Origin: Maritimibacter alkaliphilus
Lineage (GTDB): Bacteria; Pseudomonadota; Alphaproteobacteria; Rhodobacterales; Rhodobacteraceae
Assembly: GCF_019801605.1 (NCBI RefSeq)
Contig: NZ_JAHVIT010000003.1
Location: 1-64,000 of the forward strand
Direction of reading: 5' to 3'
DNA: 64,000 nucleotides
The translations under genes were made by a program, and so were the position numbers. The notes beneath the pieces were generated by a model. That model did no database searches, was not told the DNA's origin, and saw only the letters and a list, made by a program, of their open reading frames with translations. Of this stretch, positions 3,131-15,096 are shown piece after piece. How positions within the stretch are numbered: position 1 is the first letter of the stretch; each line of letters opens with the position of its first letter.

Positions 3131-3456
3131 GGCTGCGCTGGTTGGCTTATGCTTCAGGCAGCCTAAAGTGAATTCAGATTGCTGTCACCAAAGCCAGAGC
3201 AATTCGGCTGGACCGCTGCCAGAACCGCCTGCTTGAGAGCGGGGGCGTGGCGGCAGGCAGTCCAGACCGTCCTGCCCGCCAGAAGATTCCGGGCCCCCAA
3301 GTGTCTGATGACAGACAAGGAGGAGGCTGCGGCAGCGCATCGTTGGCTGGTTGGCTGGTTGGAAACTGTTCATATTCAGCTGCTCCCCGACAATTCGAGG
3401 GTCGCGGAAGCCGCGATCTGACGCCTGCTGGTCTCAAAGACAGAAGAAATCAGACC
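3131..3456. other. Gene-free remnant region with an 8-bp tandem repeat
   Basis: No convincing coding sequence was found between the LysR start and the transposase remnant at 3457. The stretch contains TTGGCTGG twice in tandem plus a partial third copy at 3343-3362. Given the IS3 remnant immediately downstream it is probably debris of a decayed insertion, but no terminal repeat could be assigned. Confidence 0.4.
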
Positions 3457-3555
3457 ATGTCGAAGCGCAGGACCCATGACGCGGGCTTCAAGGCCCGCAT
3501 GGCGCTGCACGCCGTGAAGGGCGAGCGCACCGTATCGAAGCGTGTGGCGGCCTGA
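3457..3555 (+). pseudogene. IS3-family transposase OrfA remnant (N-terminal 32 codons)
   Basis: The 32-codon frame begins MSKRRTHDAGFKARMALHAV and continues with KGERTVSKRVAA before a stop. This closely resembles the first part of IS3-family OrfA proteins of the kind beginning MSKRR-HDAAFKARVALEA. The rest of orfA and all of orfB are absent, because the convergent regulator gene follows within 40 bp. It is a different IS3 subgroup from the element at position 1, judging by the dissimilar N-termini. It marks an old insertion and deletion at this locus. Confidence 0.7.
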
Positions 3556-4257: not shown

Positions 4258-4269
4258 CCTTGCCCCACA

Positions 4270-4304
4270 TTTTCAAAGCAAATACTTGATAAAATTAGCC
4301 GAGG
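4270..4304. promoter_or_regulatory. Candidate operator shared with the sodB promoter
   Basis: This AT-rich element sits 13 bp upstream of the SufR-like start codon. It shares TTTTCAAAGCNANTACTTG, then TAAAATT and CCGAGG, with 14420-14453 in front of sodB. The core contains an imperfect inverted repeat (TCAA-G ... CTTGA). Relative to the downstream gene it is in the opposite orientation from the sodB copy, as a near-palindromic operator would tolerate. Binding by the adjacent regulator is an inference. Confidence 0.6.
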
Positions 4305-4457
4305 CGCGCCCGGATCGCAAGGTGCTGCGCCGAAACGCATACTGGCCGCGCAGCGTCCCCTGCACGGCCAGTGATGGATCGAAGAGCCCAGGGGCGGGAC
4401 ATGCGGGCCGCCGGAGCCATGACTGGCGACGGGATGCCCGGGCGTCCCCCGCGCCGG

Positions 4458-5411
4458 TCAGTCTGCGTGGGCGAACATCGGCGCCCCGGAAATTCCCAGG
4501 TCCTCGGGGAAATCGACCTTGAGGATGCTGCCGCTGTCGCTCTCGGTGATGAAGAGGCTGCGCCCCCCGGGCCCACCGAAGGCGCAGTTCGTCGTCCCAA
4601 GCCCCCGTGGAGAGCGCACCACCGCGATCGGCTGACCGAGGGCATTGTGCACCCAGACAAGCCCCATGCCGGTCTGGCAGACGACCACGCCGCCCTGCGC
4701 CGTCAGCGCCAGACCGTCCGGCCCCGCGCGCCCGCCAGAGAACTGGATGAAGAGCCCCGCCTTGTTCACCCGCCCAGAGGGCGAGAGCATCAGCCGCCAG
4801 ACCGCGTTGGCCCGCGTCACCGCGAGGAAGAGCACATGTTCGGACAGGTCCAGCGCCAGCCCGTTGGGGCTGGGGGCACTGTCGATCAGACAGTCGAGCC
4901 GCCCGCTCTCCGGCGTCCAGCGATAGACGCGGCCCGTGGGATCATGCAGCCCGGTCTGGCCTTGATCGGTGAAGAACAGCGTCCCGTCGCGCCCGAAATG
5001 CAGGTCATTGCAGCCCTTGAAGCCCTCGGTGTCGCAATCGGCAAGCGCGGGCGTCACCGCGCCCGTCTCCGGGTCCAGCAGCATGATGCCGTTCTGGTAG
5101 TCGGCGAGGAAGACCCGCCCGTCGCGGTGGATCTTCAGCCCGTTCGGCTGGCCCTCGTATTCCGCCACCTGCGTGACCGCGCCCTCGGGATTGGCGCGGA
5201 ACACACGGCCAAAGGGGATGTCGACGAAATAGAGGTTGCCCGCCCGATCGAAGGACGGCCCCTCGACGAAGCTGTCCACGGCCTGCCCGCGCCGGTTGCG
5301 TTCGGCCCAGTACGAGGGAACGCCGGGACGGCGCAGGTGTGGTGGCAGTTCGGTGAAGACCTCGGCGTCGAGGATCACCGGCTCGGGGGCGGGATAGGTA
5401 TGGGTCGTCAT
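4458..5411 (-). CDS. SMP-30/gluconolactonase/LRE family protein
   Basis: The protein has 317 residues with the repeated blade pattern of a six-bladed beta propeller: FVEGPSFD, GQPNGLKI, GCNDLHFG, APSPNGLAL and GPDGLAL. Acidic and Asn residues at the usual metal positions (Glu in EGP, Asn in PNG and CNDL, Asp in PDG) are retained. The family comprises divalent-cation-dependent lactonases that open sugar lactones. There is no signal peptide, so it should be cytoplasmic. Its start overlaps the end of dctM by 4 bp (ATGA), making it the last gene of a TRAP transporter operon. That points to an imported sugar acid or lactone as substrate. Confidence 0.88.
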   Translation of the reverse strand: MTTHTYPAPEPVILDAEVFTELPPHLRRPGVPSYWAERNRRGQAVDSFVEGPSFDRAGNLYFVDIPFGRVFRANPEGAVTQVAEYEGQPNGLKIHRDGRVFLADYQNGIMLLDPETGAVTPALADCDTEGFKGCNDLHFGRDGTLFFTDQGQTGLHDPTGRVYRWTPESGRLDCLIDSAPSPNGLALDLSEHVLFLAVTRANAVWRLMLSPSGRVNKAGLFIQFSGGRAGPDGLALTAQGGVVVCQTGMGLVWVHNALGQPIAVVRSPRGLGTTNCAFGGPGGRSLFITESDSGSILKVDFPEDLGISGAPMFAHAD

Positions 5412-6700
5412 CCGAACGTGACCTCCGGCAGGAAGAGCGCGATCTGCGGGAATGCGATCATCAGCAGCATGAAGAGAAGGATGATCGCGAAGAAGGGCAA
5501 GGTCCCGAGGATCACATCCTCGACCGTCACCTCGGAGGAGGAGCTTGCCACCACGAAGAGGATCACCCCCAGCGGCGGGGTCAGCTGCCCCAGTTCCACG
5601 AGGATCACCACGAAGACGCCGAACCAGATCGGGTCCACGTTCAGCGCCAGCAGCGCCGGGAAGATCACCGGCACGATGATCGCGATCATGCCCAGACCTT
5701 CCATGAAGCAGCCGAGGATCGCGAAGACCACCATGATGATCAGCAGGAAGGCGACCTTGGAGACCTCGGCGCTTTCCAGCTTGGCCACGAGGTCCTCCCC
5801 CACCCCCGACAGCGCCGTGGCGTAGGCGAAGATCATCGAGGTGAAGACGATGAAGAGGATGTTGCCGCTCATGGTCGCGGTCCGAACGAGGGCCTTGCGG
5901 ATCAGGTCAAGGGACAGGCGCCGGTAGAGGGCGGAGATCAGCAACGCCCCCACGGTGCCCACGGCCCCGGCCTCGGTCGGCGTGGCAAAGCCGCCGTAGA
6001 TGCTGCCCAGCACGATGACGATCAGCAGCAGGAACGGCAGGATGTCGAGCAGCGCCCGCCCCAGATCGGCCGGCGAGGCCTTGGTCTCGACCTTGGGGGC
6101 GAGCGCGGGATTGCGCAGCGCCCGCAGCATGATGAAGCCCATGTAGAGCAACGCCAGCACGATCCCCGGGATCAGCCCGGCAGCAAAGAGCCGTGCAATC
6201 GAGGTCTCGGTGAAGGTGGCGTAGATGATCATCGTGATCGAGGGCGGGATCAGGATGCCCAGCGTGCCGCCCGCGGCCAGCGAGCCCGCCACGAGGCGGC
6301 GGTCATAGCCGCGCTTGCCCAGTTCGGGCAGCGAGACGGTGGACATGGCCGCAGCGGTCGGCGCACTGCCGCCCGAGATCGCGGCAAAGATGCCGGAGCC
6401 CACGATATTGGTATGCAGCAGCCCGCCCGGCAGGCGCCGCATGAAGGGCGCGACCCCGTTGTAGAGCCGCGAGGCGAGGCCCGAGCCCAGCAGGATCTCG
6501 GCCATCAGCACGAAGAGAGGGATCGCGGCGAGGGTGAAGCTGTTGGCCGCGCCCCAGCTAACGAGGCCGAGCGCCTTCCAGCCTGCGAAGCCCTTGAGCA
6601 GCCAGAGGTAGAACAGCCCCGCGCCCGCGACGGCGAATTGCACCCACATGCCCCCGAGGATGAAGCCGATGAGCAGGCCGAAGGCAAGGATAGCGTCCAT
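5408..6700 (-). CDS. TRAP transporter large permease, DctM type
   Basis: This 430-residue, very hydrophobic protein has about 12-13 membrane spans. It carries family landmarks such as GSGIFAAISGGSAPTAAA, GTLGILIPPS and the C-terminal LTPPLGV segment. DctM forms the ion-coupled translocation pathway in the inner membrane together with DctQ. The start lies one base after the dctQ stop, and the 3' end overlaps the lactonase gene, so the four genes form one transcription unit. The order dctP-dctQ-dctM-lactonase, read leftwards, is typical of a carbohydrate-acid uptake operon. Confidence 0.93.
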   Translation of the reverse strand: MDAILAFGLLIGFILGGMWVQFAVAGAGLFYLWLLKGFAGWKALGLVSWGAANSFTLAAIPLFVLMAEILLGSGLASRLYNGVAPFMRRLPGGLLHTNIVGSGIFAAISGGSAPTAAAMSTVSLPELGKRGYDRRLVAGSLAAGGTLGILIPPSITMIIYATFTETSIARLFAAGLIPGIVLALLYMGFIMLRALRNPALAPKVETKASPADLGRALLDILPFLLLIVIVLGSIYGGFATPTEAGAVGTVGALLISALYRRLSLDLIRKALVRTATMSGNILFIVFTSMIFAYATALSGVGEDLVAKLESAEVSKVAFLLIIMVVFAILGCFMEGLGMIAIIVPVIFPALLALNVDPIWFGVFVVILVELGQLTPPLGVILFVVASSSSEVTVEDVILGTLPFFAIILLFMLLMIAFPQIALFLPEVTFG

Positions 6701-6701
6701 G

Positions 6702-7211
6702 TCAGTTGCTTTCGTTGGAAGAGCGGAAGGTGAGCAGCAGCTGCTCGACCAGGAAGAAGCCGATGACGAGGAACCCCGCCGGCATGACCATCTGCGGGAT
6801 CCACAGCGGTGTGCGCAGGACCGTGGGGGCGAACTTGCCGCGCGAGAGGGAGGAGAGCATCAGGTCCTTGGTCTTCCACGCCAGCGTGACGCAGATCACG
6901 AGGGCGATCAGCACGAAGACCCGCGCGATCCATGTCTTCGCCGTCGGGGAGAGCGCGTCGAAGAGGAAATGCACCCGGAAGAGTGACCCGTGGCGCAGCG
7001 CGAGGGCGGCCCCGAGGAAGGTCAGCAGGACCACGCAGTAGCCGGTCAGCTCCTCGGCGAAGCCCAGCGAGTAGTTGAAGCCGCCGCGCAGCAGCGCCTC
7101 GGCGCAGACAAGCAGCACGAGGAAGCACAGCACCAACCCGGTCAGAAAACGCGTCAGCGTCTCGGCCAGATCGAAGACGGGGCCGGCGGAAACCGGCCCC
7201 AGGGTGTTCAT
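6702..7211 (-). CDS. TRAP transporter small permease, DctQ type
   Basis: This is a 169-residue protein with four membrane segments and the DctQ-typical GYCVVLLTFLGAALALRHGS region. Two starts are possible: ATG at 7229 (six residues longer, overlapping dctP by 17 bp) and ATG at 7211. The second is chosen because it gives the compact TGACATG junction with the dctP stop. DctQ tethers the periplasmic receptor DctP to the DctM channel. Sequence conservation in this family is low, so the call leans partly on the position between dctP and dctM. Confidence 0.88.
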   Translation of the reverse strand: MNTLGPVSAGPVFDLAETLTRFLTGLVLCFLVLLVCAEALLRGGFNYSLGFAEELTGYCVVLLTFLGAALALRHGSLFRVHFLFDALSPTAKTWIARVFVLIALVICVTLAWKTKDLMLSSLSRGKFAPTVLRTPLWIPQMVMPAGFLVIGFFLVEQLLLTFRSSNESN

Positions 7212-7212
7212 G

Positions 7213-8187
7213 TCACTTGCCGATGGCATCGCGCACCACCTTCAGGGCCTCGACGTATTCCGGGCCGTTCTGCTCTGCCCAGGCTTCCCAGTAGGGCGCG
7301 AGTTTCTCGGTCGCCATGGCGACTTCGTCCGCATTGGAGGCGGTGATCGTCATGCCTGCCTTCTCCTGCGAGGCCTTCTGCACCTTCTCGTCCTCGATGA
7401 ACTCCGCCGTGGTGGCGGTGCCCTCCTCGGCGACGATGCTGCGCAGTTTCTCCTGCGTCTCTTCCGACAGCGCGTCGAAGGCATCGGCGTTGGCGATGAT
7501 CATCGAGTTGCCGTAGTTCACCGCGAACCGGTAGTCATAGGGCAGGAACTCGTGCCAGTTCTTCGCCCCGCCCGCGCTTGCGGTCAGCACGCCCTCGATC
7601 ACGCCGCGCTCCAGCGACGTGGGGACTTCGCTGCCCGAGAGCGTGATCGGCGCCCCGCCGAAGTCCTCGATGAACTTGCCCTGCTCGGGCGAGGTCACGC
7701 GGATCTTGTGACCTTCGAGATCGCTCAAGCTGGTCACCGGGAAGGTGGTGAAGATGGTCTGCTCCGGGTAGCGGTAGCCCCCCAGCAGGACGACGTTCTG
7801 ATCCGCGAAGGCCTCGATCAGGGTCGGCTCGATCGCGGCATAGGCCTTGGCCCATTGCTCGTCGTTCTCGATCAGCATCGGCAGGTTCAGGATCCGCGCG
7901 ATCGGCACGTTGCCCGAGAAGAAGAAGTCCGCCGCAAATTCGACGATCCCGTCGCCGACCGCCTGCGTGATGTCCGCCGAGGCGATCTGCAGCGTCTTGC
8001 CGAGGTGCAGCGTGATATCCAGATCGCCGTCGGTTTCCGCCGCGACGCGATCCGCGATGCGGGTCATGCCCTTCACCGCCGCCGTGGTCGAGACCGAGGA
8101 ATAGGTATAGGCGGTCCAGTCGTCGGCGTGGGCGAGGGTCGTGGTTGCAGTGAGGGCCACCGTCGTGGCCAGAACAACGTGTTTCAT
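7213..8187 (-). CDS. TRAP transporter substrate-binding protein, DctP type
   Basis: The protein has 324 residues with an N-terminal Sec signal peptide (hydrophobic core VVLATTVALTATTTLAHA, cleavage near residue 21). The mature part contains the DctP-family order of motifs, including KIRVTSPEQGKFIEDFGG, the stretch around the usual conserved Arg that contacts a carboxylate group. It is the periplasmic receptor that delivers substrate to DctQM. A strong GGAGGAG Shine-Dalgarno lies eight bases before the ATG. It is first in the operon with dctQ, dctM and the SMP-30 lactonase; an organic or sugar acid is the likely ligand, but the exact one cannot be read from sequence. Confidence 0.92.
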   Translation of the reverse strand: MKHVVLATTVALTATTTLAHADDWTAYTYSSVSTTAAVKGMTRIADRVAAETDGDLDITLHLGKTLQIASADITQAVGDGIVEFAADFFFSGNVPIARILNLPMLIENDEQWAKAYAAIEPTLIEAFADQNVVLLGGYRYPEQTIFTTFPVTSLSDLEGHKIRVTSPEQGKFIEDFGGAPITLSGSEVPTSLERGVIEGVLTASAGGAKNWHEFLPYDYRFAVNYGNSMIIANADAFDALSEETQEKLRSIVAEEGTATTAEFIEDEKVQKASQEKAGMTITASNADEVAMATEKLAPYWEAWAEQNGPEYVEALKVVRDAIGK

Positions 8188-8268
8188 GGGAAGTCTCCTC
8201 CGATGTCGTCAGTGTCTTGGGGCGACCGCCCTGCCCCGGTGGCCCGGGATCAGGGGGTGTCCTTTGGC

Positions 8269-8315
8269 CCCGCCTCGAGGCGGGAGCCGGAGGGCGACAC
8301 CTCGCCGCCCTCCGG
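8269..8315 (-). terminator. Two adjacent G+C-rich hairpins downstream of tctA
   Basis: A perfect 10-bp stem (CCGGAGGGCG, 9-nt loop, CGCCCTCCGG) at 8287-8315 begins 20 bp past the tctA stop. It is followed by a 16-bp perfect palindrome, CCCGCCTCGAGGCGGG, at 8269-8284. There is no T tract, so this may be a weak terminator or an mRNA 3' stabiliser. It separates the tct operon from the dctPQM operon, which lies downstream on the same strand. Confidence 0.5.
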
Positions 8316-8335
8316 ATAGTCATCGCCGTCTGGCG

Positions 8336-9841
8336 TCAGGCCTGCCGACGCGCCTTCCGCGCGTCGAGGATGCGCTGCTTCAGCCCCGGCCCCACGATGA
8401 CGGCGATGGTCAGCGCCACCAGCACGAGGCTCGTCGTATTGCGGAACAGCACGCTCCAGTCGCCGCGGCCGATCCGCAGGGCGAGGCGCAGGTTCTCTTC
8501 CGCGAAGGCGCCGAGGATCAGGCCCAGCACCACCGGCGGCAGCGGAAACTTCAGCTTGTCCATCACCCAGCCCACGGCGCCGAAGCCCAGCATGAGGTAG
8601 ACGTCGAACATGCGACCATGGATCGAGTAGACCCCGATCAGCATCAGCACGATGATGATCGACCCCAGCAGCGGGCGCGGCAGGTTCAGCAGCCGGGCAA
8701 AGCTGTTGGTGGCCAGCGAACCGCCCAGCAGGACCAGCAGGATCGCCCCGAAGAGGAACTGCCACATGAAGCCGAAGACCACGTCCGGGTTGTCCCGGAA
8801 GAGCATCGGCCCCGGTTGCAGCCCGTGCACCAAGAGCCCGCCCAGCATGACCGCCGCAACCGCGGTGCCCGGAATGCCCAGCGTCAGCGCGGGGATCAGC
8901 GCCGAAGCCGTGTCGGCGTTGTTGGCGGTCTCGGCGGCAGCGACACCCTCGGCCTCGCCCTCGCCCCAGCGTTCGGGGTGCTTCGAGGCACGGCGAGCCT
9001 CGTTGTAGGACATGAAGGCCGCCATGGAGCCCCCCGCACCGGGCAGGATGCCGATCCAGATGCCGATGAAGGAACCCCGCAGCCAGGTTTTCCAGAACCC
9101 CTTCATCCGAGGCAGCGCCTTCCAGATCGGCTCGGTCCCCAGCTTGTCCTCGGACACGCCGGTCTTGAGCGGGGTTTCCAGCAGGTCGATCACCGGTGGC
9201 AGGGCATAGAGACCCACCAGCAGGATCACGATGCTGATGCCGTCCAGCAACTCCAGCTTGCCGAAGGTGAAGCGGTCGCTGCCGAAGATCGGATCGGAGC
9301 CGATGACCGAGACGAAGACCCCGAAACAGGCGCTGATCAGGCCCTTCACCGGGCTGCCGCCCAGCAGGAAGATGATCGAGGCGAGACCGAAGACTGCGAC
9401 CCAGAAGACCTCGGCCGGGCCGAAGAGCAGCGTGACCCGCGACAGCGGCGGCGCCAGCAGCATCAGCGCGAAGGCCGAGGCGATACCCCCGATGGAGGAG
9501 GAGACCACCGCCACCTGCAGGGCAAAGCCGCCCTCGCCCTTCTGGGCCATGGGATAGCCGTCAAAGGTGGTGGCGACGGCGGCAGGCGTGCCGGGGATGC
9601 GCAGCAGCACCGCCGGTATCGCGCCGCCGTACATGGCGCCGTTGTAGATGCCCGCCATCAGGCCGAGCGCCACCAGCGGCTCCAGCCCGAAGGTGAAGGG
9701 CACGAGGACGGAGATCGCCATGGTGGCCGACAGGCCCGGCATCGCCCCCACCACGATGCCCGCGATCACGCCGATGATCACGGCAAGGAAGTTGGCGAGA
9801 CCGAAGACCTCCGGCAGGGCGTTGAGAAGATCGGAATACAT
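8336..9841 (-). CDS. tctA: Tripartite tricarboxylate transporter permease TctA
   Basis: This 501-residue integral membrane protein has about 11-12 spans. It shows the TctA signature region GAMPGLSATMAISVLVPFTF near residue 35 and a second conserved block GILPGAGGSMAAFMSYNEARR near residue 265. It is the large permease of a TTT system for carboxylates, working with TctB and the periplasmic TctC. tctB ends 6 bp upstream of its start. The associated RraA-type aldolase and hydroxyacid dehydrogenase suggest the cargo is a hydroxy or oxo carboxylate rather than citrate itself. Confidence 0.93.
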   Translation of the reverse strand: MYSDLLNALPEVFGLANFLAVIIGVIAGIVVGAMPGLSATMAISVLVPFTFGLEPLVALGLMAGIYNGAMYGGAIPAVLLRIPGTPAAVATTFDGYPMAQKGEGGFALQVAVVSSSIGGIASAFALMLLAPPLSRVTLLFGPAEVFWVAVFGLASIIFLLGGSPVKGLISACFGVFVSVIGSDPIFGSDRFTFGKLELLDGISIVILLVGLYALPPVIDLLETPLKTGVSEDKLGTEPIWKALPRMKGFWKTWLRGSFIGIWIGILPGAGGSMAAFMSYNEARRASKHPERWGEGEAEGVAAAETANNADTASALIPALTLGIPGTAVAAVMLGGLLVHGLQPGPMLFRDNPDVVFGFMWQFLFGAILLVLLGGSLATNSFARLLNLPRPLLGSIIIVLMLIGVYSIHGRMFDVYLMLGFGAVGWVMDKLKFPLPPVVLGLILGAFAEENLRLALRIGRGDWSVLFRNTTSLVLVALTIAVIVGPGLKQRILDARKARRQA

Positions 9842-9847
9842 GGTGCC

Positions 9848-10309
9848 TCAGTCCTGCCAGAGCCGGCCGGCAGGGAAGTCCTGCGACATGCCGAAGTCGA
9901 AGATCAGCCAGATCGAGCCCACCACGATCGCGGTCGCGATCACGAGGCCCAGCGGACTGCGGTAGCCGAAGATCGCAGAGACCAGCGGGATGATGACGAC
10001 GGTGCTGGGATAGAAGCCCAGCAGGTCGGTTGCCACGGCGTAGCCGACGATCAGGGCGAAGGCGCCGATCACCCGGCCCGGCGCGGTGGAGACCGGCTTG
10101 GCCACCTCACCTGCCGCGGCCTTGCGCTGATCGGAGACCAGCAGCAGCGCGGAGAGCACGATGAGGCCGATCAGCATGGCGGCCGGCAGAAGCGCCGAGA
10201 TCGGGCGCAGGTCGAAGGTCGGGATCAGGAAACCGGTGGCGGCCACGATCAGGCCGATGGCGGTCAGGGTTTCGGGCCTCAGCAGGCGGTTCTGGCGCGC
10301 TTCGGTCAT
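9848..10309 (-). CDS. tctB: Tripartite tricarboxylate transporter small subunit TctB
   Basis: The 153-residue protein has four predicted membrane helices, beginning around LTAIGLIVAATGFLI and ending at IATAIVVGSIWLIFDFGM. The length and the FGM(S) end segment fit the TctB family. It is a poorly conserved accessory membrane subunit, so its identity rests largely on being sandwiched between tctC and tctA. A 128-bp spacer separates it from tctC, longer than the other junctions of the operon, and could hold an mRNA processing or stability element. Confidence 0.87.
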   Translation of the reverse strand: MTEARQNRLLRPETLTAIGLIVAATGFLIPTFDLRPISALLPAAMLIGLIVLSALLLVSDQRKAAAGEVAKPVSTAPGRVIGAFALIVGYAVATDLLGFYPSTVVIIPLVSAIFGYRSPLGLVIATAIVVGSIWLIFDFGMSQDFPAGRLWQD

Positions 10310-10437
10310 GGGTCAGCTCCGTTGGAAGTGGCGGGACGCGCGGGGCCGTGCGGACCTCCGGCGAGCCGGATACACGCGCGGGGCCCCGGCGTCGGGGACC
10401 ACCGGCAGGCGCAGGGCCCGCCAGTGGGACATCAGGC

Positions 10438-11391
10438 TCAGTTCCAGGGGGTTTCCTGCCAGACCTTGTTGGCAAGGTCGTAGAGGTCCGAGGTGAGCTG
10501 CTTGAAGTCGTCTCCGGTGACGACTTCGATCGGGTTCGCCGTATCGGCCATGGCCTTGAGGAACTCCGGGTCGCCGGCCATCTGCTCGAAGGCGTCGTCG
10601 AGCTTGGCCACCACGTCCTCGGGCAGGCCGGCGGGCGCCACGAAGCCGCGCATGGAGCCGTTGATCAGGTCGATGCCCTGCTCGCGGAAGGTCGGCAGGT
10701 CAGGCGCGAAGTCCGACCGTTCCTCGGTGGCGACACCCAGCACGTTCAGCTCGTCCTGGAAGCTGGCCACTTCCGAGATGTTCAGGATGCCCATGGCCAC
10801 ATGGCCGCCCATCAGCGCGGTCCGCGCGGGCGCCGACCCCTTGAAGGGCACGATGGTGAACTCGGTCTCGGTCAGCCCTTCGAGCTTGATCAGCGCGAAG
10901 TGGTCGTCACCGCCGAGGCTCGACATGCCCACGGTGATCGCGCCCGGGTCTTCCTTGGCTGCGGCGATCAGCTTTTCCATCGTGTCAAGGCCGCTGCCCT
11001 TGGAGGTCACGATCACGTTGGGATCGTTCACCACGTTCGCGAGGTAAGTGAAGCTTTCGCGGTCATACCCGGCCTCGCGGTCGATGGTCCGCGCCATCAT
11101 GCCGGGCAGGTTGAACGTGCCGATGGTATAGCCGTCGGGCTTGGCGCCCGCGACCTCGGTCACCCCGATCTGGCCCGAGGCGCCGGGCATGTTCTTGACC
11201 ACGAGGCTGGCCCCGCTGCCAAGGTACTTCTCGATGAAGGGCGCCGCCGTGCGGGCCATCACATCGGTGCCGCCGCCGGCGGAATAGCCCACGATCACCT
11301 CGATCGGCTTCTCGGGGTACTCCGCCAGTGCGGCACCAGCCGCGAGGATCATGGCACCGGCTAGGGCGCCCTTCTGGATCAGTTTCAGCAT
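10438..11391 (-). CDS. tctC: Tripartite tricarboxylate transporter substrate-binding protein TctC (Bug family)
   Basis: The start is placed at the second in-frame ATG (11391), giving 317 residues. An AGGAGGAG Shine-Dalgarno lies directly before it, whereas the ATG at 11409 would put that sequence inside the gene. The signal peptide (LKLIQKGALAGAMILAAGAALA) is followed by the Bug-family opening YPEKPIEVIVGYSAGGGTD, which shapes the carboxylate-binding pocket, and later by the LAG- and PAGLPEDVV-like segments of the family. It acts in the periplasm as the high-affinity receptor for TctAB. The preceding gene is rraA-like, 43 bp away. Confidence 0.92.
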   Translation of the reverse strand: MLKLIQKGALAGAMILAAGAALAEYPEKPIEVIVGYSAGGGTDVMARTAAPFIEKYLGSGASLVVKNMPGASGQIGVTEVAGAKPDGYTIGTFNLPGMMARTIDREAGYDRESFTYLANVVNDPNVIVTSKGSGLDTMEKLIAAAKEDPGAITVGMSSLGGDDHFALIKLEGLTETEFTIVPFKGSAPARTALMGGHVAMGILNISEVASFQDELNVLGVATEERSDFAPDLPTFREQGIDLINGSMRGFVAPAGLPEDVVAKLDDAFEQMAGDPEFLKAMADTANPIEVVTGDDFKQLTSDLYDLANKVWQETPWN

Positions 11392-11434
11392 GTTACTCCT
11401 CCTGTTCATGCGTAGTTCTGTTCTTGGTCTTGTC

Positions 11435-12115
11435 TCAGTCGGCCGGGAATTCGCAGCCGAGCTCCTTCAGCGCGGCGTCGACCCAGCTGCGGTCGTTGGT
11501 GCCCTCGGCGATGGCCTTCATCTGGCCGATCTCGGCGGCGGACTTGGCCTGGGTGCTCTTCAGCACGGCCTCGGCCTCGGCCAGCGGCACGCAATGCACG
11601 CCATCGCTGTCGCCGATCACGATGTCACCGGGGTGGATGACCATGCCGCCAAGGCTGATCGGCACGTTGATCTCGCCGGGGCCGTGCTTGTAGGGCCCGC
11701 GATGGGTGATGCCCGCGGCAAAGGTCGGCAGATTGGTCTCGACGAAGGCGTCGAGGTCGCGGATCGCCCCGTTCAGCACGAAGCCCGCCACGCCTTTCTT
11801 CACCGCGTAGGCCAGCATCAGCTCGCCCATCAGGGCGTTGGTCAGATCGCCACCCGCGTCCACCACGATCACGTCGCCCGGCACGGCCATGTCGATGGCC
11901 TTGTGCAGCATCAGGTTGTCGCCGGGGCGCGACTTCACGGTCAGCGCGACGCCGGCCATACCGCCGGAGGCGTGCATCGGGCGCAGGGTCGGACCCGCCG
12001 CGGTCATGCGAGACATGCTGTCCGAGACGTTGGCAACCGGCAGCTTGGCGTAGGCCGCGACGAGCTCCTTGGAGGCAACTTGGGTGCGGTTGAGGATGCG
12101 GAAGCCTGCGGGCAT
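11435..12115 (-). CDS. RraA-family aldolase (HMG/CHA aldolase type)
   Basis: This 226-residue protein of the RraA fold has the conserved GDVIVVDAGGD segment (80-90), the GE-LML region around 97-100 and the metal and substrate residues Arg119-Asp120 in NGAIRDLD. Members are class II, divalent-metal-dependent aldolases that cleave 4-hydroxy-4-methyl- or 4-carboxy-4-hydroxy-2-oxo acids, or decarboxylate oxaloacetate. A subgroup instead inhibits RNase E. Its place three bases after a hydroxyacid dehydrogenase gene and before tctCBA argues for the catabolic role. It may release pyruvate or oxaloacetate from an imported branched hydroxy acid. Confidence 0.85.
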   Translation of the reverse strand: MPAGFRILNRTQVASKELVAAYAKLPVANVSDSMSRMTAAGPTLRPMHASGGMAGVALTVKSRPGDNLMLHKAIDMAVPGDVIVVDAGGDLTNALMGELMLAYAVKKGVAGFVLNGAIRDLDAFVETNLPTFAAGITHRGPYKHGPGEINVPISLGGMVIHPGDIVIGDSDGVHCVPLAEAEAVLKSTQAKSAAEIGQMKAIAEGTNDRSWVDAALKELGCEFPAD

Positions 12116-12118
12116 GGG

Positions 12119-13129
12119 TTATTTCTCCACGGAAGTGAGGGGGGCCGCGGCGGCGGCCATGAGGGTGCGGTTCACGATGCGCTCCGGCGGCACCGGCTGA
12201 CCAGCGAGAATTTCGAAGATCCCACGCAGCGCCTCGGTGCCGACCCGCGCATTCGCCTGCGCGGTGACCCCACCGATGTGCGGGGTCATGACGATATTGG
12301 GCTGCGCAAAGAAAATGTGATCCGGTTCAGGCGGTTCGCTGGCAAAAGTATCAAGACCCGCGCCCGCGATATGGCCGCTCTCGACCGCCGCGACCAGCGC
12401 CGCCTCGTCGATCAGGCCGCCGCGCGCGGTGTTGACCACGTAGGAGCCTGCGGGCATCCGGGCGAGCGCCTCGGCGTTCAGGATCTGGCGCGTGGCATCG
12501 GTCAGCGGGCAATGCAGCGACAGCACGTCAGAGCCTTCCAGCAGTTCCTCGAAGCTGGCGCAGCGCCGTGCGCCTGCCGCCGCGAAGGCGCTGTCCGGGG
12601 CAAAGGGATCATAGGCGATCCGCTCCATCCCGAGACCGGCCGCCATCTGTCCCGTGGCCCGGGCGATCGCCCCGATGCCCATCAGGCCAATGGTGCTGCC
12701 TGCCAGTTCCCGGCCCTGAAAGCCCGGCTTCTCCCAGCGGCCCGCACGCAGGCCGGCATCCAGCGGAAGCACGCGCTTCACCGCGGCCAGCAGCAGTGCG
12801 ATGGCATGTTCCGCGACCGAGACCGCGTTCGCCCCCGTGGCGACCAGCACCGGGATGCCCCGCTCTGCGGCGGCGGCGGTGTCGATGTTGTCGACGCCCA
12901 CCCCGTGTTTCGAGATCACCTTGAGCTGCGGCGCCGCATCCATGACCGAGGCGTCGATCCGCCCCATCCGTGACACGATGCCGACGGCGCCCGAGGAGAC
13001 CATGCAATCCGCGATCACCGCCGCATCGGCGTAGGGAGGGGTGTGCACCAGTGCGTAGCCATGGTCTTCGGCCAGTTGCCGCGCCGCAGGGGCAAGGTCG
13101 GGGCCGGTTACAAGGATGGTCTTGCTCAT
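12119..13129 (-). CDS. D-3-phosphoglycerate dehydrogenase-like 2-hydroxyacid dehydrogenase
   Basis: The start is set at the ATG beginning MSKTILVTGPDLAP (13129), giving 336 residues. A longer frame upstream lacks family similarity. The NAD-binding loop appears as GLMGIGAIARATG, followed by catalytic Arg in NTARGGLID, Glu in ASEPPEP and His in TPHIGG. This is the SerA-like branch without an ACT domain. It is probably the first gene of the leftward operon with rraA-like and tctCBA, and it is divergent from a LysR gene 189 bp away. It is likely to oxidise or reduce the imported hydroxy acid rather than make serine. Confidence 0.87.
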   Translation of the reverse strand: MSKTILVTGPDLAPAARQLAEDHGYALVHTPPYADAAVIADCMVSSGAVGIVSRMGRIDASVMDAAPQLKVISKHGVGVDNIDTAAAAERGIPVLVATGANAVSVAEHAIALLLAAVKRVLPLDAGLRAGRWEKPGFQGRELAGSTIGLMGIGAIARATGQMAAGLGMERIAYDPFAPDSAFAAAGARRCASFEELLEGSDVLSLHCPLTDATRQILNAEALARMPAGSYVVNTARGGLIDEAALVAAVESGHIAGAGLDTFASEPPEPDHIFFAQPNIVMTPHIGGVTAQANARVGTEALRGIFEILAGQPVPPERIVNRTLMAAAAAPLTSVEK

Positions 13130-13318
13130 CGCGCAGGTCTCCAGTGACGTCCCGAGAGACGGGACGCGTGCAGCGGTTGTCGTTTTATCAGGGAACCGCC
13201 GCCAGCCTCCCAGCTTGGCGCGGAACACCTCCTCCATGTCAGACCTGTGTAAGGGATAGAAACTCTGCACAACAGCGATTAATAATGGTTCACACATTTA
13301 GAAAAACTGGATCAAATA

Positions 13319-14212
13319 ATGGACACCCGCCAGCTCAAGACCCTTGTCGCCATCCACTCCCACGGCACCTTCGCCCGGGCGGCGGGGATCGTGGGGCTGA
13401 CGCCCTCGGCCGTGAGCCAGCAGATCCACGCGCTGGAACAGGAACTGGCCATCACCCTGTTCGACCGCAGCTCACGCCCGCCCAAGCTGACCCCGCAGGG
13501 AATGCAGGTCCTTGAAATGGCACGGGATATCCTCCAGCGGGAAGAAGACGCGAAGGCCAGCCTGCGCGGCGATCAGATCGCGGGGACGCTGATGCTGGGC
13601 TCCGTCCGCTCCAGCGCGCTCAACCTGCTGCCGCAGGCAGTGGTCCAGATGCGCACGAAGCATCCCAAGCTGAAGGTGAACCTGCGGGTCTCGCTGTCCA
13701 CGACCCTGATCGCGGACGTGGCAGCGGGCCGTCTCGACGCGGCCGTGGTCGCCGAACACGTGGGATTCCCCAATGCGCTGCGATGGTCGCCCTTCCTGAA
13801 GGAGCCCCTCTGGCTGATCGCCCCGCCGGGCACCCCCGAACGCAGCGCCATCGACCTGCTGAACACGATGCCCTACGTGCGCTTCCAGAGCGCCGTTCCG
13901 CTGGCCAACCTGATCGACACGGAACTCTCCCGGCTTGGCGTGGTGACGAAGGACGTGGCGCAGATCGACACCATCGGCTCCATCGTCACCTGCGTGCATC
14001 AGGGCCTCGGCGTGTCGGTCGCGCCCCACGCCGCCCTCAGCGCCCCCGAAGGCCGCAACCTGCTCAGGCTCCCCTTCGGCACCCCGCAAATCTCGCGCCA
14101 GATCGGGCTGGTGGAGCGAACGACATCCTCCCGCAAGAACCTCATCTTCGAGATGCACAACATGCTCGTCTCCCTCTGCGGAGAGTACGGCGTGCCCCAC
14201 ACCGCGCAGTAG
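13319..14212 (+). CDS. LysR-family transcriptional regulator, divergent from the tct catabolic operon
   Basis: The protein has 297 residues with a canonical LTTR N-terminus: MDTRQLKTLVAIHSHGTF, the recognition helix in LTPSAVSQQIHALEQEL, and FDRSS...LTPQG. The effector domain fills the rest. The 189-bp gap to the divergent hydroxyacid dehydrogenase gene is the classical LTTR layout, so this protein is the best candidate regulator of the operon from 13129 to 8336. The gap is AT-rich just before the start (GGTTCACACATTTAG area), a plausible promoter and operator zone, but no T-N11-A site could be fixed with confidence. Confidence 0.9.
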   Translation: MDTRQLKTLVAIHSHGTFARAAGIVGLTPSAVSQQIHALEQELAITLFDRSSRPPKLTPQGMQVLEMARDILQREEDAKASLRGDQIAGTLMLGSVRSSALNLLPQAVVQMRTKHPKLKVNLRVSLSTTLIADVAAGRLDAAVVAEHVGFPNALRWSPFLKEPLWLIAPPGTPERSAIDLLNTMPYVRFQSAVPLANLIDTELSRLGVVTKDVAQIDTIGSIVTCVHQGLGVSVAPHAALSAPEGRNLLRLPFGTPQISRQIGLVERTTSSRKNLIFEMHNMLVSLCGEYGVPHTAQ

Positions 14213-14419
14213 CGCCGCGGCCCGTGTCCCGGCTCCACGCGCGCCGCCACCGCTCCCAACGGCGCCCTACCCCTGCGCGGCGCTCCCCGCGCGAGGCCAG
14301 GTCCAGTGCGCGCCTCCCCCGTCCCCCTCCCGCAACGTCCGACCGCGCGGCACCGCCTTCGCGGCCCGCGGGCGCCCGGCCTTATTCCAAGTCATCACTT
14401 GACATATTGCCGCCAATAT
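14213..14419. other. Intergenic leader upstream of the sodB operator
   Basis: This is very G+C-rich, gene-free sequence that changes abruptly to AT-rich at about 14390. A TTGACA hexamer at 14399-14404 is a reasonable -35 candidate for the sodB promoter; a matching -10 is ambiguous because the operator begins at 14420. No RNA gene or riboswitch was recognised. Confidence 0.4.
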
Positions 14420-14453
14420 TTTTCAAAGCCATTACTTGTTTAAAATTCCGAGG
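14420..14453. promoter_or_regulatory. Candidate operator of the sodB-fdxA-flavin reductase unit
   Basis: This element is the second copy of the one at 4270-4304. The first 10 bases are identical, TACTTG is identical at the same spacing, and TAAAATT and CCGAGG match with small offsets. It lies 40 bp upstream of the sodB ATG, overlapping where RNA polymerase should sit, so a bound protein would most simply repress. Control by the SufR-like protein encoded at 3592-4257 is inferred from the shared sequence. Confidence 0.6.
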
Positions 14454-14493
14454 CCTGCGCGACTCACGCACCTCGGAGCGAAAGGAAACGCAT

Positions 14494-15096
14494 ATGGCTT
14501 TCGAACTCCCCGCCCTACCCTATGATCACGCCGCCCTCGCATCGCGTGGCATGAGCGAGGAAACCCTCGCCCTGCATCACGACCGGCACCACCTCGCCTA
14601 TGTCACCGCGCTGAACACCTTCGTCTCGGAGAACGCCGATCTCAAGGGCAAGACCCTCGAAGAGATCATCGCGCTGACCTATGGCGATCCGGCGCGTGCG
14701 GGCGTTTTCAACCAGGCCGGCCAGCACTGGAACCACATCCACTTCTGGAACGCGCTCTCGCCCACCGGCGGCGGCATCCCCGGCAAGTTGGAGGCGAAGC
14801 TGGTGGAGGGCTTCGGTTCGGTCGAGGCCTTCAAGGCCGCCTTCAAGACCGCCGCGACCGGGCAGTTCGGCTCCGGCTGGGCCTGGCTGATCCAGAAGGC
14901 CGACGGCACCCTTGGCGTCACCAGCACGCCGAACGGGGTCAACCCGCTCGCGACCGGGGAAGGCACCGCGCTGCTCGGCCTCGACGTCTGGGAACACAGC
15001 TACTACGTCGATTTCCGCAACAAGCGGCCTGACTACGTGAGCAACTTCCTCGACAGTCTCGCGAACTACGAGTTCGCCGAAGCCAACCTCGCCTGA
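14494..15096 (+). CDS. sodB: Superoxide dismutase, Fe type
   Basis: This 200-residue protein of the Fe/Mn SOD family catalyses superoxide dismutation in the cytoplasm. Metal ligands appear as His28 (in ALHHD), His81 (in HWNH), Asp164 and His168 (in LDVWEH). Gln77, in NQAGQHWNH, is the outer-sphere residue typical of iron enzymes; manganese enzymes have Gly there and supply Gln from the C-terminal domain. AAAGGAAA precedes the ATG at 14494. The gene begins a likely unit with a 7Fe ferredoxin and a flavin reductase and carries the shared upstream element. Confidence 0.94.

Follow-up and report, generated by a model that had tools for sequence, protein, structure and literature searches.

A SufR-like regulator and a conserved pair of palindromic sites linked to sodB in Maritimibacter alkaliphilus and its relatives

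The window analysed here is a stretch of 64,000 nucleotides of Maritimibacter alkaliphilus (Rhodobacteraceae; assembly GCF_019801605.1, contig NZ_JAHVIT010000003.1, positions 1 to 64,000). It contains, some 10 kb apart, the gene of a winged-helix regulator that resembles SufR (a sensor with an iron-sulfur, Fe-S, cluster) and a unit made up of sodB, fdxA and a flavin reductase gene (Table 1), and the same element precedes both. The 19-mer TTTTCAAAGCNANTACTTG is found without a single mismatch at 4270-4288 and 14420-14438, followed in both places by TAAAATT (4290 and 14441) and CCGAGG (4299 and 14448), and the G+C content is 36% at 4262-4300 and 35% at 14378-14448, versus 67% for the window. A previous sequence-only reading of this DNA had pointed out this common element and the two AT-rich islands, and both descriptions were correct. 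It had also proposed a genome-wide search for the 19-mer, which returned no random matches but just these two copies. Specifically, no third copy was found in the window at up to three mismatches (0.02 expected in shuffles), and no further one in the whole 4.91 Mb genome at the same threshold (a reversed control pattern gave three matches). The core of the element is the palindrome (C/A)AAG-N6-CTTG. A second copy of this palindrome, CAAGTCATCACTTG, is located upstream of sodB, 37 bp from the first one (start to start); we call this outer copy site 1 and the one within the shared element site 2.

Table 1. Genes, predicted sites and remnants in the window.
Feature	Position	Strand	Remark
SufR-like winged-helix regulator, 221 aa	3592..4257	-	C-terminal C169, C172, C178, C182, C212
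Operator site 2 of regulator, AAAG-CAAATA-CTTG (predicted)	4275..4288	.	17 bp upstream of regulator ATG
Remnant of sodB leader, GAAACGCATA	4332..4341	+	Regulator side; short, suggestive only
Remnant of regulator start, ATG TCA AGT GAT GAC TTG GAA TAA (MSSDDLE, stop)	14382..14405	-	sodB side
Operator site 1 of sodB, CAAG-TCATCA-CTTG (predicted)	14388..14401	.	Right arm overlaps TTGACA
-35-like hexamer TTGACA of sodB	14399-14404		-35 role inferred from sequence
Operator site 2 of sodB, AAAG-CCATTA-CTTG (predicted)	14425..14438	.	37 bp from site 1
sodB, Fe/Mn superoxide dismutase, 200 aa	14494..15096	+	Sod_Fe_N and Sod_Fe_C
fdxA, ferredoxin FdxA, 112 aa	15156..15494	+	NF045490 above its cut-off
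Flavin reductase, 171 aa	15494..16009	+	PF01613 E 1.5e-30

The biological meaning of these sites can be glimpsed by looking at the same genes in other genomes. We have used a one-genome-per-species collection that provided 72 named loci (L numbers) with relatives of the regulator, and in 48 of them the regulator and sodB are divergent and no more than 400 bp apart (three of these 48 are short pieces). The pair of sites lies between the two genes in 43 of the 48, and another four (L016, L034, L037 and L074) have kept site 2, with site 1 one base off. Not a single pair appeared in 9,600 dinucleotide shuffles of the 48 shared regions, 141 of which had any single site. Over all 72 loci there are 46 pairs: the 43 already mentioned, the one at the Arenibacterium regulator (L023) and those of two sphingomonad loci facing an RND pump (L059 and L075). 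The gap measures 23 bases in 43 of the 46. Site 1 spans codons 2 to 6 of the regulator in most loci, and most orthologues have a site similar to the one before the window's regulator at about the same distance from the start. In 32 non-redundant rows the spacers are variable (0.23-1.01 bits/position) and the flanks TTTTC and ACATA nearly fixed. The arms belonged to the search pattern and therefore their constancy in these rows proves nothing; the pair count (43/48) does. The conservation next to orthologous regulators and sodB genes, which had been suggested as a check on the sequence-only reading, is therefore real.

The genes that accompany this arrangement were identified by tblastn. After sodB, the 48 loci contain a flavin reductase (31), fdxA (19) or a DoxX-like gene (13), and a globin gene follows the regulator in 26; a Pfam check placed one globin and one DoxX-like protein above the cut-offs, and a second globin just under. 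Salipiger bermudensis AmN7-7 is an example of a genome with two regulator-sodB loci (L014 and L019), one with fdxA, flavin reductase and globin and the other with DoxX and an RND pump; duplication of the locus therefore does occur. A degenerate copy is seen in Salipiger pallidus (L083), in which the regulator has neither C172 nor C178 and a sodB fragment overlaps it.

The conserved block includes TTGACA and an AT-rich stretch, and the sites might accordingly be plain promoter sequence, or belong to some other regulator, the present one being connected to them by neighbourhood only. The distribution of the sites makes this very improbable. Among 198 genomes of the family the pair is found in three, which are the three with a close regulator (with the window genome left out, in two of 197, again the same two that have the regulator), and it is absent from the other 195 searched, including a fourth genome that has a 28% relative. 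The sites also accompany the regulator at loci where a pump is next to it, and sodB keeps the pair after separation from the regulator in three lineages. Along these lines, (C/A)AAG-N6-CTT(G/T) is present near the start in 18 of the 20 relatives that do not face sodB (24 loci, minus three split cases and the decayed L083), versus 1.3% of shuffles. The operator of SufR, CAAC-N6-GTTG, was found in none of these 20 upstream regions and in none of 29 from more distant loci of the class (those retrieved of 44 non-own matches, one of them cut by a contig end). When the flank is added, TTTTCMAAG-N6-CTTG gives 85 matches in 37 of the 38 regulator-bearing genomes (four for the reversed control), of which 73, by a hand count of the listing, are located at the regulator or at sodB. 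In the window genome this pattern occurs only in the two places described above.

The possibility that the window's own genome has a wider regulon was considered and rejected: MAAGYNNNNRCTTG matches there 17 times forward and 18 times in reverse, versus 30 and 38 for the reversed control. Four other places with this pattern were inspected (L124 to L127). All four lack the TTTTC flank, and with the flank included no place in the genome matches beyond the two described above, so we have treated them as chance. At L125, the end of an open reading frame (ORF), and at L126 there is no evident promoter position. At L124 (4155-4168, G000:C2:1665654) the 14-mer CAAGTCATCACTTG, the same as site 1 of sodB, overlaps by eye the end of dnaG before rpoD, probably by chance, and at L127 AAAGCAGAAGCTTG (3399) lies within 100 bp before an ORF that is NirB-like, also by eye.

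Another conspicuous component of the neighbourhoods is efflux. Among the 20 relatives that do not face sodB, 16 adjoin an MFS gene (10) or RND parts (6), all of them divergent from it with the exception of L060 (15 of 16), and an RND pump follows the sodB unit in seven sodB loci. The ten tblastn queries behind this survey came from the loci themselves, which means that it is not unbiased. Some pumps have sites of their own: the RND operon of Pseudodonghicola has one (L035 at 5680), and that of Stappia has two with CTTT right arms, 37 bp apart (L064 at 5752 and 5789). We have inspected nine of the 12 flanked matches that lie off the loci (those in G605, G590 and G586 were left out), and four of the nine precede candidate targets, namely MFS genes (L145 and L147), the RND operon of L035 and, in Salipiger abyssi, a second sod gene (L164). 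By Pfam, four pump proteins at three of the off-locus places were confirmed, as were the second superoxide dismutase (SOD) and two further pumps. In Sphingobacterium (L066, about 6718-8636) a relative with CAAG-N6-CTTG faces ORFs that by eye look like FMN reductases, which fits a redox role outside the Proteobacteria.

Judging from their sequences, the window's two patches derive from a single bidirectional promoter of the ancestor. Its duplication accompanied the parting of the regulator and sodB, and the 10 kb distance is the derived state. The remnant beside sodB corresponds to the first seven codons of the regulator followed by a stop (three orthologues start MSSDDL). The one on the regulator side recurs at 14485-14494, at the sodB start codon, and has no other plus-strand copy in the window. 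With remnants on both sides, we conclude that the bidirectional promoter was duplicated and that one gene was kept per copy. The nearest relative, Pseudooceanicola nanhaiensis, has the same split (its regulator is 93% identical and the DNA 94% over 12.5 kb), and the two genes are likewise apart in Arenibacterium and Poseidonocella. On a tree of 100 regulators the split state needs three changes, and the three places are separated by starred branches. The pair is present at sodB in all three split lineages (the window, L131, L128 and L129; SodB of the last three is 77-97% identical to the window's), and a decayed regulator start is still legible beside the sodB of Arenibacterium. The Arenibacterium regulator has both sites, and those of the window, P. 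nanhaiensis and Poseidonocella have only site 2. Site 1 is hence always kept at sodB and gone at two of the three parted regulators, which suggests that site 1 may serve sodB and site 2 the regulator, or both.

This history has a bearing on how the likeness of the two patches can be used. The sequence-only reading took it as a sign of co-regulation, but because both patches descend from one promoter that was duplicated and split, likeness alone is no evidence of it; what supports co-regulation is the conservation in relatives. The remnants, which show the patches to be duplicates, and the lack of site 1 on the regulator side could even be taken to mean that the patches are mere relics of the duplication, one of them without a present function. 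We consider this very improbable, since wherever a site has been kept in the window, P. nanhaiensis, Arenibacterium and Poseidonocella its arms are intact, unlike the neighbouring old coding sequence, which has decayed in the window and in Arenibacterium.

The operators are separated (4458-14212) by a catabolic cluster that has no relation to the regulator and sodB: it comprises a gluconolactonase-like gene, genes for TRAP and tripartite tricarboxylate transporters (the transporters identified by eye), a LysR regulator and a 2-hydroxyacid dehydrogenase. Within 3347-3555, a piece of about 150 bp (3347-3500) is left without a partner in the alignment with P. nanhaiensis, and the end of an ORF at about 3458-3555 (MSKRRTHDAGFKARMALHAVKGERTV) resembles, by eye only, the start of an IS3-type transposase.

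As for the protein, the regulator has a single NCBIfam match at E 0.001, over the full length, to the profile SufR_cyano (TIGR02702; E 1.1e-28, 100.4 bits), and five relatives score 98.8 to 122.7 bits with this profile. Neither the SoxR profile TIGR01950 nor any Rrf2-type profile (the family of IscR) matches it at that threshold. The C-terminal cysteines are very well kept in 103 aligned rows: C169, C182 and C212 are each present in 102, C178 in 100 and C172 in 97. The first four are incomplete in the distant L011, in L082 (where the frame is left) and in the decayed L083. Since C169, C178, C182 and C212 are kept in 100 to 102 of the 103 rows, they are four candidate, and indeed likely, ligands of a cluster. 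In SufR the cysteines are arranged as C-X12-C-X13-C-X14-C (review, PMC8593673). In our regulator the spacing is C169-X12-C182-X29-C212, with no cysteine at the third SufR position and C178 instead. C169, C182 and C212 are comparable with C203, C216 and C244, which are required in SufR of Mycobacterium tuberculosis (PMC6034842). The holo form of that protein represses, and nitric oxide (NO) and high peroxide derepress (PMC10848736); by analogy, the present regulator should be a sensor of superoxide, redox drugs or NO. The likeness to TIGR02702, with a score below the family cut-off, and the conserved C-terminal cysteines would fit the SufR-type Fe-S sensor of the sequence-only reading.

A different kind of sensor could also fit the regulator and its sites as described, one that responds to a ligand (a drug, a metal or a thiol state) and has no Fe-S cluster, like the MarR, PadR and ArsR proteins that control pumps. 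Many relatives do adjoin MFS or RND pumps, and the best PDB fold matches of an AlphaFold model of the regulator (mean pLDDT 81, pTM 0.57) are PadR, ZitR and MarR-type proteins, although their TM-scores to the query are low (about 0.3). This model is silent on cysteine geometry and played no part in the cluster claim, and no PDB sequence matched the regulator at E 0.01. The near invariance of the four cysteines and the likeness to SufR over the whole length make a ligand sensor unlikely, and the replaceable C172 is in keeping with a cluster bound to the other four.

The comparison with known systems helps to place the regulator. To SufR it is linked by the full-length profile match, the N-terminal winged helix, the C-X12-C motif and a site before its own gene; as expected for autoregulation, at the level of sequence, this promoter carries an operator-like site (4275-4288, and likewise in orthologues) that does not follow the SufR consensus. 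Both operators consist of two 4-bp arms around N6, but the arms are CAAC/GTTG for SufR and CAAG/CTTG here. The cysteine spacing after C-X12-C also departs from that of SufR. Most of the named loci lie beside sodB or pumps, and in the window genome the regulator is not with suf: no (C/A)AAG-N6-CTTG-type site was found in 14.5 kb around the suf locus of this genome. A 2021 review describes SufR as dedicated to Fe-S cluster assembly and as restricted to Cyanobacteria and some Actinobacteria (PMC8593673), whereas the present relatives are found in Proteobacteria, Bacteroidota and Chloroflexota. Since it departs from SufR in profile score, operator and suf linkage, we have placed the regulator beside SufR as a variant. 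IscR of the Rhodobacterales is, like SufR, an Fe-S-linked repressor, but it belongs to the Rrf2 family and heads the isc-suf operon in Rhodobacter sphaeroides (PMC4618611). The suf locus of the window genome is itself headed by an IscR-like Rrf2 gene (144.5 bits with the IscR model, cut-off 207.55; above the cut-off for the Rrf2 superfamily). SoxR is a MerR-family protein, unlike the SufR-like winged helix of the present regulator. The two would resemble each other, if our reading is right, as redox-type regulators located by superoxide defence and MFS or RND pumps. A distinct match to SoxR, above the cut-off, lies at C5:56026 of the genome (a perfect CAAG-N6-CTTG is seen about 850 bp from it, at G000:C5:55168). 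The circuit had been proposed to be distinct from SoxR and from the classical suf system, and it does look distinct from both, because the suf locus is headed by an IscR-like gene and has no site and the SoxR match lies elsewhere. SoxR is above the cut-off in 20 of the 38 regulator-bearing genomes (the window's included), and therefore the circuit is something other than a plain substitute for it. In the 18 where this cut-off is not reached, the circuit may consequently stand alone. A further likeness is that the sites are common to two divergent genes, as in Stenotrophomonas, where a single shared region is used by SoxR both to activate mfsA and to repress itself (PMC4411124).

Several observations do not sit easily with a regulator that acts through these sites throughout. 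The loci are kin by descent, so the locus counts are not independent. L078, a locus of the Bacteroidota with sodB adjacent, has AAAG-N6-CTTT alone, the regulator in the window has a single site and no site 1, and one regulator-bearing genome (G615) has no match to the flanked pattern. In 385 genomes of the class the pair is found in the window's own alone, though 45 of them (own included) have a relative at E 1e-15; the pair therefore marks the sodB-linked branch and not the whole family. Even (C/A)AAG-N6-CTT(G/T) is present in just 14 of the 29 more distant class loci (versus 1.2% of shuffles). Across the genome that contains the window, (C/A)AAGYNNNNRCTTG is no commoner than its reversed control, and five of the nine inspected off-locus matches (L022, L130, L146, L152 and L165) are not before pump or SOD genes. 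Finally, the 100.4 bits of the regulator do not reach the curated TIGR02702 cut-off of 178.8.

Taking all this together, we give a probability of roughly 0.72 to the reading, derived from sequence comparison, that this is an autoregulated SufR-type Fe-S repressor with an operator of its own, which would control superoxide defence and, in relatives, also efflux. An autoregulated sensor that also controls the sodB-ferredoxin-flavin reductase unit is what the sequence-only reading had in mind, and the conservation in 43 of 48 loci and the lack of random 19-mer matches support it. In mechanistic terms, a dimeric regulator would bind the (C/A)AAG-N6-CTTG palindromes. Site 1 would place it over the -35-like TTGACA of sodB and site 2 between this hexamer and the sodB start; read the opposite way, site 2 would sit in the promoter region of the regulator. 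With the cluster intact (C169, C178, C182 and C212 as likely ligands) the dimer would hold both promoters down. Damage to the cluster by superoxide, redox-cycling compounds or NO would release the repressor, and SodB, FdxA and flavin reductase would be made, together with globin, the DoxX-like protein and efflux pumps in relatives. The ancestor had a single bidirectional promoter between the two divergent genes, and after its duplication in the lineage of the window the copies came to lie 10 kb apart, with site 1 lost from the regulator side. The sequences themselves show the sites, how these are conserved and tied to the regulator, and the ancestral gene order; the binding, the Fe-S cluster, the signal, the repression and any role of iron in this scheme are what we infer. 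The sign could also be the opposite, with the regulator activating sodB in the manner of SoxR while repressing itself, for which the Stenotrophomonas mfsA region offers a precedent (PMC4411124). This is quite unlikely, considering that site 1 on TTGACA and site 2 just downstream would be positions that block the polymerase, and that the SufR proteins described are repressors (PMC8593673, PMC6034842, PMC10848736).

At a broader scale, and more tentatively, at slightly less than even odds, the regulator may represent a large unrecognised branch of SufR-type Fe-S repressors that read CAAG-N6-CTTG and provide, in Proteobacteria and beyond, a second response to superoxide and redox drugs of the SoxR kind, with a regulon of SOD, FdxA, flavin reductase, globin, DoxX and RND or MFS pumps. 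There are 2,564 protein clusters homologous to the regulator at E 1e-10, not all of which need belong to the branch. Among the papers listed by searches of the open literature, none deals with a SufR-like regulator of sodB or of pumps, as judged by titles and the openings of abstracts; most subscription papers were outside this scope, and such a regulator may already be in print. If the reading holds, the Proteobacteria would have a second protein solution to a task for which SoxR is the textbook case. The site is simple and can be searched for in genomes, which would make the targets predictable. The three separate partings of regulator and sodB, with sites kept at both genes, amount to a natural experiment in how a divergent promoter becomes a trans-acting regulon.

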